A stretch of DNA of 64,000 bases from positions 62,001-126,000 of the forward strand of contig NZ_FQYQ01000008.1 of assembly GCF_900141825.1 (NCBI RefSeq). Direction: 5' to 3'. Of the stretch, positions 44,503 to 55,234 are shown in pieces. The translations under genes were made by a program, and so were the position numbers. The notes beneath the pieces are model-generated. The model saw only the letters and a program-made list of their open reading frames with translations, was not told the DNA's origin and searched no databases. The stretch is from Pseudobutyrivibrio xylanivorans DSM 14809. Its GTDB lineage: Bacteria; Bacillota; Clostridia; Lachnospirales; Lachnospiraceae. How positions within the stretch are numbered: position 1 is the first letter of the stretch; every line of letters starts with the position of its first letter.

Positions 44503-45912
44503 TTATTCGCTATCAAGAATTACCATAAATTCTTCGCCTGTATACTGGCCTTTTAAATCTACAAACAAATTCTTCTCTACTTCTTCCTCTCCATCACCCC
44601 AATAATCCCATTCCCAAACTCTATTTTTTGCCTTGCCATCCTTATAGCTGTAGATATATAAATACTCGCACATTTCATCATCTACAATTAATTCAGGTAT
44701 ATCATCTTCATCAATTAATGCAAGTGAATATGTTTTTTCTGAATAACAACTATCTATCTTAACAAATTGTTTATAGGCAGCTTGCCATGTATCATATTTT
44801 CCATCATCTGATACCTTCAATGCTTTCTTTATATTTTGAACACCGATATCACCATCAAGGATATCCATTACCCATGCTGAAGCTTTTCCATATGTAAAGA
44901 ATACATAGTCATCGTTAATGTCCTTCTCACATATAGCTATAATAGCCTGAAGATTGTTATCCTTATCAGGACCTACAACGACAATATCTTCCAAGCCATC
45001 AGCATTTACATCAACAGCTTCAACAGCATTTGCCTCTATAAGACTAATTGAATCATCATTGTAAGAATAACCAAGACCAAAAACATCATATTTATCATTT
45101 CCTTTTACCAGAACAACAGATGCTTCTGTATCTTCATCATTCTTATCCCACTTTTTATATGCATAAGCCTTTATATCATCGCCTATAAGTGGTAAAGCAA
45201 TATCAAATTCTTTCGAAGAGTGATCTGATGTCTCCCAGACATTTCTGCTGGATTTCACCATGTATCCACTAAGAGTTTTAATTAATACAATTTCCTTGTT
45301 AGGATGCCTATAGTAATAAGTGAAGTTGCTATATACACTCTCCATTTCAAGGATGTAAATGTTTCCGTTTTTTATAGCATTGATACAATTATAGGATTCA
45401 AAGTCATAGTCATCTTCCCTTAAGTATATGCCAGTAGGTTTATAGTAGGACCAATCTAAGTTATCTTTAATATCCTTTAAATGCTTGCCTGACTTTTGAT
45501 AAACAAATTTTTCCAGCTCTTCTTTATCTATAGACAGAACTCTATAACCCTCAAAGTCTTCATCATAAACATGCTCATACAGACTCCTTGTTTCTCTGTC
45601 TGATTCATATTCACAAATTCCAGCTCCACCAGCCAAAACAGTATTCCAATCTATATCCTCAGCACTTTCAAATGTGGTTCTGCAAAAGCCATTGTATTCT
45701 ACCGAATCAAAAATATCTGCCACTTTCAAGCGCTCTCTGTATTTAAGCTTTACAGTCTTTGGATCATTCTTTATAGCTTCAACATCCACAACTGTTTTTG
45801 CTGCATCCTCCAACTGTTTCTCACAGATATAATCATAACCATGCTTTCCGCCAACTCCTGCTAAAGCCAGTATAGCCAAAGTATATACACCAATAATATA
45901 TTTCTTTTTCAT
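44503..45912 (-). CDS. Secreted or anchored protein with FG-GAP-like segment
   Basis: A 469-residue protein with an N-terminal hydrophobic segment (about 5-21, signal or anchor) and an acidic, Tyr-rich body. Around residue 305 the stretch DVNADGLEDIVVVGPD resembles the calcium-binding loop of FG-GAP/VCBS repeats, and a similar acidic segment (LIDEDDIPELIVDDEM) appears later. It is a single gene with its own terminator and a 660-bp upstream region full of repeats. The function is unknown. Confidence 0.7.
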   Translation of the reverse strand: MKKKYIIGVYTLAILALAGVGGKHGYDYICEKQLEDAAKTVVDVEAIKNDPKTVKLKYRERLKVADIFDSVEYNGFCRTTFESAEDIDWNTVLAGGAGICEYESDRETRSLYEHVYDEDFEGYRVLSIDKEELEKFVYQKSGKHLKDIKDNLDWSYYKPTGIYLREDDYDFESYNCINAIKNGNIYILEMESVYSNFTYYYRHPNKEIVLIKTLSGYMVKSSRNVWETSDHSSKEFDIALPLIGDDIKAYAYKKWDKNDEDTEASVVLVKGNDKYDVFGLGYSYNDDSISLIEANAVEAVDVNADGLEDIVVVGPDKDNNLQAIIAICEKDINDDYVFFTYGKASAWVMDILDGDIGVQNIKKALKVSDDGKYDTWQAAYKQFVKIDSCYSEKTYSLALIDEDDIPELIVDDEMCEYLYIYSYKDGKAKNRVWEWDYWGDGEEEVEKNLFVDLKGQYTGEEFMVILDSE

Positions 45913-46059
45913 TTAATTATTTCCCTTAAAAAATCGTGCCCGTCTATGATAGCACTAAAGAATATGTGAGTCTATTGAATTAAAGACTAGCTTAACCCAG
46001 AGGTTTGGTCAGTGAAGGCTAGGCCTCTTTTGGCAGATACTAGGCAAACAAGCTCAAAA
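45913..46059. other. Intergenic DNA upstream of the 469-residue gene
   Basis: This should hold the leftward promoter; a possible pair is TAGACT, 17 nt, TATCAT on the minus strand. No gene or RNA is recognised. Confidence 0.35.
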
Positions 46060-46408
46060 AAAATAGGGTGTGGCAAAGCCCATTGCATTTACTACCTGTG
46101 ACCTACTAATTTGATAAGGTAGTAATTTTTTTTAGATATTCTACTACCTATATAAAAGAAAAGAACACAGGTAGTAACTTTTTACTACCTCAAGGGAAAT
46201 TATCAACACAGGTAGTAGTTTATGAAGCAAAAACTACTATCTCTAAAAGCAAAATCTTTTCAGGTAGTAAAACTCTCATTTTTTCCTACTACCTATATCA
46301 ATATATTTACCAATAGGTAGTAAAATTAAAAATCTATCTGTATTTTTTTTATATAAATAACTGTCCCAGTTCCAAATATGTAGTGTGGCTCTGCCACAAT
46401 CCCATTTT
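46060..46408. repeat. Array of ten alternating 7-bp motifs inside flanking inverted repeats
   Basis: ACTACCT occurs at 46091, 46143, 46184 and 46288 (variant ACTATCT at 46236), and its complement AGGTAGT at 46117, 46169, 46210, 46262 and 46315. Orientation alternates strictly. Start-to-start distances are 26, 26, 26, 15, 26, 26, 26, 26 and 27 bp; the intervening DNA is not conserved. The array is enclosed by related arms at 46060-46080 and 46387-46408 in opposite direction. No open frame covers it. Its nature is unknown: a multi-site regulator target, a centromere-like site or a small mobile element are options. Confidence 0.8.
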
Positions 46409-46526
46409 CACCCCTGCTTGATTACCCCATATCAGCTAAAAGTCGAGAAGTCAATGCCGCGAAGCGCCGAAGGGGAGCATTGACTTTGAGACTGGGCTGA
46501 TATGCTATATCAAGCAGGGTGAAAAT
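46404..46526. repeat. 123-bp imperfect hairpin element
   Basis: Four pairs of arms are nested in order: ATTTTCACCC/GGGTGAAAAT, TGCTTGAT/ATCAAGCA, ATATCAGC/GCTGATAT and TCAATGC/GCATTGA, around a short GC-rich centre. The stem is about 50 bp with bulges. It lies beside the motif array and before the PqqD-like terminator. It may be a structured RNA or a miniature transposable element. Confidence 0.7.
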
Positions 46527-46529
46527 AAA

Positions 46530-46560
46530 AAAGAGGTTTAGCCATAGACTAAACCTCTGA
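46530..46560 (-). terminator. Terminator of the OPT transporter operon
   Basis: AGAGGTTTAG and CTAAACCTCT form a 10-bp stem followed on the minus strand by TTTTTT, 16 bp after the stop of the PqqD-like gene. Confidence 0.88.
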
Positions 46561-46573
46561 GTTAAACTCATCT

Positions 46574-46912
46574 TTATTTTACTCTCTTCACAAACCCAAC
46601 CTGCTCAAGGTGCTTCATGTAGACACTGAGGCGCTCGTAGAGGGGCTCGGCTTCATCACCATATTTGTCATGGACAAGCCCACCGATATCATACACATTA
46701 CGCTTTCCATCGATGCAGGTCCAGATAAAGGAACCCATGCCCTCCAGGGTAATTTTGCTGACTGCAGGTTTCTTGAAGAACTTCTGAGCCACGCGGTTTG
46801 TGAATCCTTTATTTTCCATTTCAACAATGACCTCTCCGGACTCGGAAAGAGTCCAGATGAGGTCAGAATTTATCGCATATACGAAATCTAAATAGTTTTC
46901 TTTATTTGTCAT
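46574..46912 (-). CDS. PqqD-like (RiPP recognition element) protein
   Basis: A 112-residue protein of the PqqD type: after a short N-terminus (VYAINSDLIWTLSESGEVIVEM) the winged-helix core follows (TLEGMGSFIWTCIDGKRNVYDIGGLVHDKYG, then MKHLEQVGFVKRV). In peptide-modification pathways this fold binds the precursor peptide. Here no radical SAM enzyme or precursor is adjacent; instead the gene overlaps the end of the OPT transporter gene by 11 nt. A role in peptide handling with that transporter is an inference. Confidence 0.8.
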   Translation of the reverse strand: MTNKENYLDFVYAINSDLIWTLSESGEVIVEMENKGFTNRVAQKFFKKPAVSKITLEGMGSFIWTCIDGKRNVYDIGGLVHDKYGDEAEPLYERLSVYMKHLEQVGFVKRVK

Positions 46913-53500: not shown

Positions 53501-55234
53501 TTATTTGTCGTCCTCAAATACCTCAACGACATCATTTGCGTAGGCCTTAATACAAAGATTTGCCTTTGCAACATCCTCTACATTTTCCCAATCCAATCCA
53601 TTGTTACTGATAAAGCCCTTACCGTCTGTGATATCAACTGCCGCTGTCATTGAATCACTAACATATTCCACTGCAAGTGGGCGCTTGGTATCAGGTGTGT
53701 TGATGTAGAGAATAATGGCGAAGTTCTCTCCCTTTTCTACTGTTTTCGCCTGATTAAATTTTACAGTATAATAGCCTGCTTGGTCTACTGTTCCAGATGC
53801 AACAATTTCTTTTGATGAAAGTGTGCTTGTGTTTTTATAATCTGGAACAAAGTATATCTGATAACTTGTGTTTTTTCCCAATGCATAGAAACCAGCTGCT
53901 TCTATCTGCTGATTTGCCTCAGCTGTAAATGTATTGCAGCCGTATGCCCATTCCTTGCTATAACCAATCTGTCCAACCCAGCCGCACAAATCGCTTTGAT
54001 AAATATAATTATATGTGTTATTAGTGTCAGCCTTAACATATGAAACAGCCTGATTACCAATATTTGAATCATAGTAAGAAATGTAAAATACACCATCATC
54101 ACCAAATCCACTACCCCAACTGTTTTGACAGATGAAAGCTCCTCCGCGAGGAACTTCGGTGCTAAAATTTTCTGCTGGATATGTATCATCCCAGCCAATT
54201 ATTACTACGTCATGATTAGGCTTTTCATTTCCTGTATAGCAATATGAATTTGTATTGCGATTATAACAGCTGGATCCGTTCAGATTCGCTGTGTTAACAC
54301 TGGCGTAAATTGATGTGGAAACGCCGCCATATTTGTAAACAGCCCACTTTATATCATCAAGTTTTTCTGAATCATAAAAATGAGCTTCCTGTAAATGCAC
54401 TGAAGGTGGTGTAGTCTCTCCCGTAAGCTCCTGAATAAGACCTCCATCCTTCTCATCCTCAACAGGTCCCTGCCATGATAACAGATATGCCAATGCCATA
54501 GTGTATTCACCACCGGCAGCCTCATCCAATTGGAAGCTGTTGTTATTAATCATGGAATCAACAGAAAACTTATAATGGGATGCAGGTAAAAGTGACGACT
54601 CTAATGCCTCTAGAGATGCACACGCCCAACAGGTAGCAGTAGAGCCCTGATTTCTTATAAAGCTGACTCTGTCCACATCTCGCAAATCATAGACAAGTGG
54701 AAGCTTTGGCAGCTTGTTGATTTTGATATTAGCCGTATATGTTGAACGATCATATGAATAATCGTAGCCGAAAATATCACATAAGTCCTTTAGTCCTACG
54801 TACATCCTGCCGGTATGCATTGATGGTTTGATAGCCAAATCCATATCATTGCCATTTGCAGTGGCTGTCTTATTATCCACAAGAAACTCATAGATATTAT
54901 TAGAAACTTGAACCACAGCACAATTCTCGTCTTCCATAAAGGCAGAACCACCTAATGTGCTGCGAATGAACTCCAGTGAGCCAACAGGATTCAACCTGTC
55001 ATCCAAAATAGCCTCCTGCTCATAACTAGAGTAGAGATTATCATTAATGTAGAGTCTCAGTTTACCTGAGTCATTAAGATTTTTAGACATTAAAGGATAC
55101 AGCACGTCTTCATTTAAAGTTGCTCCTCTAAATGAATCGACGGCTGCATACCTGTCATTCCAATTATTCATTTTTCCAAACACGGTGATTGCAATAATTA
55201 AGAGAAACACCGTAAATCTTTTGGAAAGTTTCAT
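53501..55234 (-). CDS. Secreted papain-like (C1 family) peptidase with stalk domain
   Basis: A 577-residue secreted protein: signal peptide (about 1-20), a copper-amine-oxidase-N-like stalk domain (about 60-172), a C1 peptidase domain (about 178-420) and a C-terminal lectin-like beta domain. The catalytic residues are C202 in STATCWACAS, His in NHDVVIIGWDD and Asn in CQNSWGSGFGDDG. It starts 3 bp after the methyltransferase gene and precedes the amidase by 32 bp. It probably degrades or remodels surface or food proteins. Confidence 0.9.
   Translation of the reverse strand: MKLSKRFTVFLLIIAITVFGKMNNWNDRYAAVDSFRGATLNEDVLYPLMSKNLNDSGKLRLYINDNLYSSYEQEAILDDRLNPVGSLEFIRSTLGGSAFMEDENCAVVQVSNNIYEFLVDNKTATANGNDMDLAIKPSMHTGRMYVGLKDLCDIFGYDYSYDRSTYTANIKINKLPKLPLVYDLRDVDRVSFIRNQGSTATCWACASLEALESSLLPASHYKFSVDSMINNNSFQLDEAAGGEYTMALAYLLSWQGPVEDEKDGGLIQELTGETTPPSVHLQEAHFYDSEKLDDIKWAVYKYGGVSTSIYASVNTANLNGSSCYNRNTNSYCYTGNEKPNHDVVIIGWDDTYPAENFSTEVPRGGAFICQNSWGSGFGDDGVFYISYYDSNIGNQAVSYVKADTNNTYNYIYQSDLCGWVGQIGYSKEWAYGCNTFTAEANQQIEAAGFYALGKNTSYQIYFVPDYKNTSTLSSKEIVASGTVDQAGYYTVKFNQAKTVEKGENFAIILYINTPDTKRPLAVEYVSDSMTAAVDITDGKGFISNNGLDWENVEDVAKANLCIKAYANDVVEVFEDDK

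Follow-up and report, generated by a model that had tools for sequence, protein, structure and literature searches.

The window, that is, the whole stretch of 64,000 nucleotides that was analyzed, corresponds to C19:62001-126000 in the 3.42-Mb draft genome of Pseudobutyrivibrio xylanivorans DSM 14809 (G000). Two minus-strand genes (44503-45912 and 46574-46912) flank an array in which ACTACCT alternates with its reverse complement, AGGTAGT (Table 1). No open reading frame of at least 60 aa was listed inside 45913-46573, and no known Rfam family matched between 44000 and 48000. The original prediction had described ten alternating heptamers, and these were confirmed by a motif scan: nine are exact, starting at 46091(+), 46117(-), 46143(+), 46169(-), 46184(+), 46210(-), 46262(-), 46288(+), and 46315(-), and the tenth is the variant ACTATCT at 46236-46242. 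The start-to-start distances were measured as 26, 26, 26, 15, 26, 26, 26, 26, and 27 bp, in agreement with the earlier reading that eight of the nine are 26 or 27 bp and the remaining one is 15 bp. This short step is about one helical turn below 26 bp.

Table 1. Positions (in the window) of the array and of the element that surrounds it
Feature	Position	Strand	Basis
MITE-like dispersed element with array (ends approximate)	45965..46592	.	Inverted-arm comparison; copies in the source genome by eye
Left-end hairpin AGAGGTTTGG..CTAGGCCTCT, then T-run; terminator-like	45999..46028	+	By eye; intact in other copies in the source genome
Array of ten alternating heptamers, five pairs ACTACCT..AGGTAGT	46091..46321	.	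Exact-match scan; geometry in 68 arrays
Pair 1, ACTACCT-N19-AGGTAGT	46091..46123	+	Motif and pair scans
Pair 2, ACTACCT-N19-AGGTAGT	46143..46175	+	Motif and pair scans
Pair 3, ACTACCT-N19-AGGTAGT, preceded by 8-nt linker (15-bp step)	46184..46216	+	Motif and pair scans
Pair 4, ACTATCT-N19-AGGTAGT, variant arm	46236..46268	+	Sequence read and motif scan
Pair 5, ACTACCT-N20-AGGTAGT	46288..46321	+	Motif and pair scans
Right-end hairpin AGAGGTTTAG..CTAAACCTCT, terminator-like on the minus strand, 3' of gene 46574-46912	46532..46558	-	Hairpin scan

The window contains 15 exact copies of ACTACCT or AGGTAGT against 4.73 expected, a count that was reached in 0 of 100 shuffles. In 20 Markov-1 simulations of the window (half-period, 20 to 34 bp; chains of at least 4 counted), alternating 7-mer chains reached a length of 4 in two runs and stayed below 4 in the other 18. 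Chance in shuffled sequence, which had been raised as a possible source of such spacing, reproduced neither the count nor a chain longer than 4. The array was also the sole one found in the window with 7-mers and a chain of at least 5, as had been claimed. With looser 6-mers, a chain of five ACAAAT copies at 25-bp spacing was seen at 53986-54091, inside a coding region; it is probably due to chance.

The array is enclosed by the outer inverted arms of a short element (45965-46010 and 46547-46592; 46 nt, 74% complementary). As in MITEs, the window copy has terminal inverted repeats, occurs in several dispersed copies, and is without a transposase of its own. The left-end hairpin was missed by a 3-mismatch scan, its sequence being too diverged. 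Exact copies of the 31-base form of the right-end hairpin were present at 24 loci out of 344, many being overlapping views of the same places. In the source genome, ACTACCT-N17-21-AGGTAGT gave 40 pair matches at 12 listed places, one of which was counted twice because contigs C19 (at its end) and C21 (at its start) overlap by 343 bp at 100% identity. By eye, 8 of these 12 places (L011, L013, L015, L016, L017, L019, L021, and L022) lie within one dispersed element of ~600 bp whose copies have hairpin ends (AGAGGTTTAG..CTAAACCTCT) and palindromic arms, some of them being shortened. The array on contig C41 (L020), upstream of a comEC-adjacent gene, has no surrounding element, and its spacers are unrelated. 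Since the array also occurs outside the element (L020, L183, and other species), it was deduced to be MITE cargo rather than the element itself. A MITE-like element may have captured one array and brought the window copy to its locus.

TACTRYCT arrays in other genomes

The wider motif of the arrays is the degenerate octamer TACTRYCT. A search of related genomes, as had been recommended, located both the array and its periodicity in relatives: of the 29 genus genomes, 15, the source genome among them, contained the degenerate triple ACTRYCT..AGRYAGT..ACTRYCT, and none contained its reversed control. Of the 378 genomes in a sample across the family, 2 had a close variant of the triple, and both belong to this genus. 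The arrays collected numbered at least 68, with 894 heptamers and up to 42 heptamers in the longest; L017 overlaps L016, which leaves 67 distinct arrays and 890 distinct heptamers, and the arrays of G028, G012:C26, G025:C78, G021:C25, and G005:C7 stand outside the set.

Across the 68 arrays, 807 of 826 steps were 25 to 27 bp, and the spacers had diverged. Inner steps were 26 bp in 362 of 438 cases and 27 bp in 70, and outer steps were 26 bp in 338 of 388, 25 bp in 32, and 15 to 16 bp in 13. A complete pair stood at both ends of 52 of the 68 arrays. The units of one array were often near-identical. In a set of 258 unique units spaced exactly 26/26, conservation was seen in a central A-run and in the octamers TACTRYCT/AGRYAGTA, with weaker preferences at the adjoining bases. 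The arrays are intergenic, some of them directly past stop codons; 54 of the 68 lie off the comEC locus, and by eye eight clearly have convergent genes on their two sides and three have divergent ones.

When one genome per species was searched with the strict triple, 37 stretches were obtained, 17 from Pseudobutyrivibrio and 20 from the actinomycete Antribacter. The latter (A. gilvus and A. soli; L056-L090, e.g., L061:359-443) hold short AGGTAGT/ACTACCT alternations at 25 to 27 bp in GC-rich DNA, with CGTCCGACG-like palindromes between them and CGGC/GCCG extensions. No members of the nuclease-like family described below were found in the Antribacter array loci, and a loose detector applied to this GC-rich DNA gave 19 chance-like chains in 154 kb besides AGGTAGT, with scattered spacings. 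The motif match in Antribacter may reflect coincidence or convergence. A phage origin was considered and rejected: the relaxed triple had no match in viral_contigs, the four strict matches there were near-identical GC-rich contigs of different build, and the nuclease-like protein had no close relative in viral_contigs and one distant relative (L343).

A nuclease-like gene family and its private arrays

The gene context and copy number of the arrays had been put forward as points to check. An array was found between comEC and the same gene, encoding a protein of ~263 aa, in 10 species, directly upstream of that gene; in three cases (L152, L157, and L168) arrays lie on both sides of it. The identity of comEC was supported by matches to Pfam Competence in the two proteins tested (1.8e-41 and 2.6e-49). 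This survey of adjacency covered the arrays outside G012 and G028, and in G006, G014, and G025 none of the collected arrays adjoined the ~263-aa gene. The comEC-adjacent gene of the source genome, G000:C41:141699-142487, lies on another contig than the window, has its own ACTACCT array directly upstream, and is taken as the cognate gene.

The C terminus of the ~263-aa protein is deduced to be PD-(D/E)XK-like from profile similarity and acidic residues. The padloc profile PDC-S68 matched it in 3 of 3 proteins scanned (2e-24 to 1.5e-26), HEAT_CxxC_PDDEXK matched 2 of the 3, and the phrogs matches to endonucleases and Holliday junction resolvases were weak (best, 1.7e-5). E159, D190, E205, and H206 were invariant in 22 of 22 sequences, and no PD-(D/E)XK lysine was evident. 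Nothing exceeded the Pfam cutoffs for two proteins (stray matches had E values of 0.0095 or weaker), NCBIfam gave nothing for three, and no PDB sequence matched. The structure model, built from two sequences, was poor (pLDDT 46.7); at this low confidence it contains three strands (residues 34-39, 42-48, and 54-57) and a long helix (59-97). A weak match to the integrase profile phrog_1 (E value of 0.09) was seen in 1 of 3 proteins.

The family was present in 28 of 29 genus genomes, 26 of which have two or more copies. In a sample of 200 Lachnospiraceae genomes, it was found in 61 of 199 genera, a count that takes in the source genus and some proteins of ~1100 to 1260 aa sharing the C-terminal part only. 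The idea of a single special partner at comEC was dropped on account of this multicopy distribution, which led to the question of whether paralogues have arrays of their own. A detector that makes no assumption about the motif was used to scan the flanks of 139 family genes for alternating inverted words (half-periods of 14 to 42 bp). Paralogues were found to carry arrays of equal geometry with other motifs, including GACACG, ATGCATCC, TGTATGGG, TACAGT, GCAGTACT, CAGCCGTAA, and GTGACCGCA. Chains of at least 4 occurred upstream of 59 of 67 genus members and downstream of 15 of 68, compared with 7 of 70 simulated upstream flanks; for the family set, the numbers were 32 of 64 upstream and 16 of 69 downstream. 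Chains of at least 5 were found upstream of 71 of the 139 genes (43 of 70 in the genus set, 28 of 69 in the family set), downstream of 11, on either side of 77, and in the gene body of 1, as against 1 of 139 simulated upstream flanks and none of 139 simulated downstream ones; on neither side was such a chain seen for 62 genes (26 in the genus set, 36 in the family set). Among 70 control genes from 16 sources, mostly the source genome and its genus, 2 had a chain of at least 5, one being the window array itself (Fisher p of 4e-14, kinship ignored). The 139 genes represent 137 distinct proteins (L168/L208 and L188/L275 are the same places) with many orthologues, and the p values overstate independence. 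Taken together, the arrays beside one nuclease-like family of these gut bacteria suggest an undescribed pairing of protein and array.

These positions bear on an autoregulatory explanation, in which the array would serve only as an operator for self-repression by the nuclease-like protein, the scattered copies would be MITE passengers or old duplications, and the enzyme would have no role in spreading. It would account for the predominance of upstream over downstream arrays and for the distance from the start of the nuclease-like gene, which is often 25 to 300 bp. We consider it unlikely, as the number of sites in an array reaches 19 to 24, which exceeds what an operator would require, some genes have arrays downstream or on both flanks, and most TACTRYCT arrays lie off the comEC locus, including those between convergent and divergent genes.

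The spacing of the arrays fell into clusters. Of 89 arrays, 58 had half-periods of 25 to 27 bp, 26 of 30.5 to 32 bp, 2 of 37.5 bp, and 3 elsewhere (18, 24, and 36 bp); none had half-periods of 27.5 to 30 or 32.5 to 35.5 bp. In other genera, the 31 arrays were distributed similarly: 12 at 25.8 to 27 bp, 16 at 30.4 to 32.1 bp, 2 at ~37.5 bp, and 1 at 24.2 bp. The helical repeat of DNA is 10.5 bp per turn, and the clusters at ~26, ~31.5, and ~37.5 bp are near 2.5, 3, and 3.5 turns. L214 (31.6 bp) and L256 (26.5 bp) have a shared motif at spacings half a turn apart.

The similarity of the motifs was compared with the identity of different regions of the adjacent proteins (71 proteins; L208, L275, L020, proteins of at least 340 aa, arrays with half-periods below 24 bp, and the chains found downstream at L207 and L260 were set aside). 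For residues 31-60, the observed correlation was reached by 0 of 300 permutations; the p values were 0.01 for residues 61-100 and a borderline 0.06 for residues 1-30, and no correlation was found for residues 101-140 (p of 0.77) or the nuclease part (p of 0.83). When the C-terminal part was controlled for, the N-terminal correlation was reached by 0 of 500 permutations, while the converse gave a p of 0.77. The correlations were small (rho, 0.05 to 0.13), and L333 is a counterexample: its TGCATCC-like motifs are in common with L212, L215, L217, L218, L239, L242, and L243, yet residues 31-60 are only 16 to 24% identical. On these sequence comparisons, motif similarity appears to follow residues 31-100, weakly but significantly, and not the nuclease domain. 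This has a bearing on whether the arrays might be BIME-2-like nucleoid or topology sites bound by gyrase or a nucleoid protein, with the nuclease-like neighbor present for another reason. The intergenic placement, sometimes just past stop codons, would suit such sites, and gyrase binds BIME-2 according to the available part of PMC2817692. A general protein would, however, need one motif, whereas here the motif varies by paralogue and follows residues 31-100, and we regard this explanation as quite unlikely.

In seventeen 8-kb Pseudobutyrivibrio stretches picked for TACTRYCT arrays, one other chain was detected, a CATCCC array at L071:4401-4538 (six copies, 26.4 bp), and no nuclease-like gene was found in that 8-kb locus; it is possibly a dispersed array of another motif, of which it would be a single example. 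Just right of the window end, L342 (G000:C19:126381-127052) encodes another paralogue of the nuclease-like protein, and downstream of it TCAATA alternates in an array of 14 copies, spaced at 25 bp.

RNA hairpins or DNA sites

Among the possibilities first named for the array was a hairpin-array RNA, and another was a cooperative DNA-binding protein. In type III toxin-antitoxin systems (toxIN), a nuclease gene is preceded by an array of tandem repeats, and a tandem hairpin RNA could in like manner neutralize the downstream nuclease. The position of the arrays upstream of a nuclease-like gene recalls toxI-toxN, the inner spacers are purine-rich, mostly along the co-directional flanking genes (by eye; exceptions include L161, L164, and L186), and the RNA folding z-scores of the two strands were -7.27 and -7.72. 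These z-scores are a consequence of the inverted heptamers as such. If stems were formed in RNA, variants should match within pairs more than between pairs, but the agreement (kappa) was equal, with inner and outer values of 0.79 and 0.78 at heptamer position 4 and of 0.46 and 0.47 at position 5. Mixed pairs comprised 46 C.A versus 41 G.U at position 5 and 4 A.C versus 9 G.U at position 4, a total of 50 versus 50, and neither stem-specific covariation nor a G.U bias was seen in the collected arrays. The half-turn spacing clusters are a property of DNA, and arrays also stand alone. Further differences from type III systems are that the repeats alternate rather than being direct and that the protein has a DNA-nuclease-like domain. 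A check for a ToxN-fold endoribonuclease gave no Pfam match over the cutoff (two proteins) and no NCBIfam match (three proteins), with PD-(D/E)XK-type matches instead. The hairpin RNA was dropped on the equal concordance and the absence of wobble bias, and it is scarcely probable in our judgment.

Compared with permutation within arrays, the concordance of neighbors was slightly raised, at 295 of 438 inner pairs (mean, 276.7) and 262 of 388 outer pairs (mean, 245.2), which is what local duplication would give. This slightly greater likeness of neighboring copies, together with the near-identical units within one array, would also be expected of a functionless minisatellite by-product, in which tandem repeats with inverted ends expand by slippage. 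Such an origin is considered very unlikely, as the octamers and A-run stay conserved when the spacers diverge, and as arrays of a single geometry, with many unrelated motifs, are found next to members of one gene family.

The evidence favors a DNA-binding protein and helical phasing, which had been part of the original prediction: the steps are locked across diverged arrays, the spacings cluster at half-turns, and a region of the neighboring protein tracks the motif.

Proposed pairing and comparison with known systems

It is rather probable, judging from sequence, that the array consists of double-stranded DNA sites, TACTRYCT, alternating every 2.5 helical turns and read by the N-terminal domain of the ~263-aa PD-(D/E)XK-like protein. 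Residues 31-60 may form a motif-reading beta-sheet like that of AP2 domains or integrase arms, and adjacent dimers of the protein would occupy the DNA in a row. By nicking or cutting DNA, the protein might promote local duplication and array spread, by analogy with what has been proposed for RAYTs and BIMEs. In a wider form, to which we assign an even balance of likelihood, the pairs would constitute an undescribed, Lachnospiraceae-wide class of genes and arrays, in which the N-terminal domain of a PD-(D/E)XK protein reads a private motif of 7 to 9 bp that alternates in orientation next to its gene at 2.5, 3, or 3.5 turns and the enzyme maintains, amplifies, and spreads its arrays. Such a class would be an analogue of REP/BIME-RAYT assembled from unrelated parts, with several orthogonal specificities per genome.

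In iteron- and parC-type arrays, several phased sites for a protein adjoin the gene that encodes it. The present arrays share this arrangement, with a presumed binder, and differ in strict alternation, the many loci per genome, and the nuclease-like neighbor. The earlier statement that known arrays do not alternate stands for CRISPR, whose direct repeats of ~20 to 50 bp with unique spacers contrast with the alternating 7- to 8-bp sites seen here, but is incomplete, since BIMEs alternate, as described in the available part of PMC2817692.

A literature search yielded nothing on point besides this RAYT paper, available in part (PMC2817692). In that part, the RAYT is proposed to promote BIME duplication and spread, each RAYT-type enzyme has a private repeat, and REP/BIME sequences are intergenic, lying beside the enzyme gene and dispersed elsewhere (PMC2817692). 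The arrays described here share with them, as far as that part of the paper goes, the alternating orientation, regular spacing, intergenic position beside a presumed enzyme gene, dispersal, and a repeat private to each enzyme. They differ in that the sites are nonpalindromic TACTRYCT copies of 7 to 8 bp with free spacers, whereas REPs are palindromic, and in the half-turn spacing clusters and the PD-(D/E)XK-like nature of the adjacent protein. A RAYT was rejected, as a search for the Y1 (IS200/IS605-like) transposase (PF01797) had no match in 10 of the 15 genomes with arrays (G000, G002-G006, G011, G012, G023, and G024), the source genome included; it was present in the other 5 (G007, G014, G021, G025, and G028) and in 5 of 14 genomes without arrays. 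Since the same logic in the available part of the RAYT paper uses a transposase, the nuclease-array pair is called an analogue, not a member, of REP/BIME-RAYT.

If the proposal is true, it would represent a second, independent origin of BIME-like alternating repeats in bacteria and a protein family in which the neighboring array could reveal the DNA specificity. It would also supply numerous natural pairs of protein and site in which the architecture is helically phased. A curious repeat would thereby become a directly testable question, namely, whether the neighboring protein binds the array.

At the comEC locus of G025 (L178), a single array lies between comEC and a 356-aa gene, without a nuclease-like gene, where L168 (G024) and L152 (G004) have the order array, gene, array. 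L178 looks like a case in which the gene was lost via recombination between flanking arrays. Finally, the contigs of several family members, such as G037:C103, G086:C46, G049:C4, and G194:C45, were observed to begin no more than a few hundred bases upstream of the nuclease-like gene, as repeats at that place would cause.
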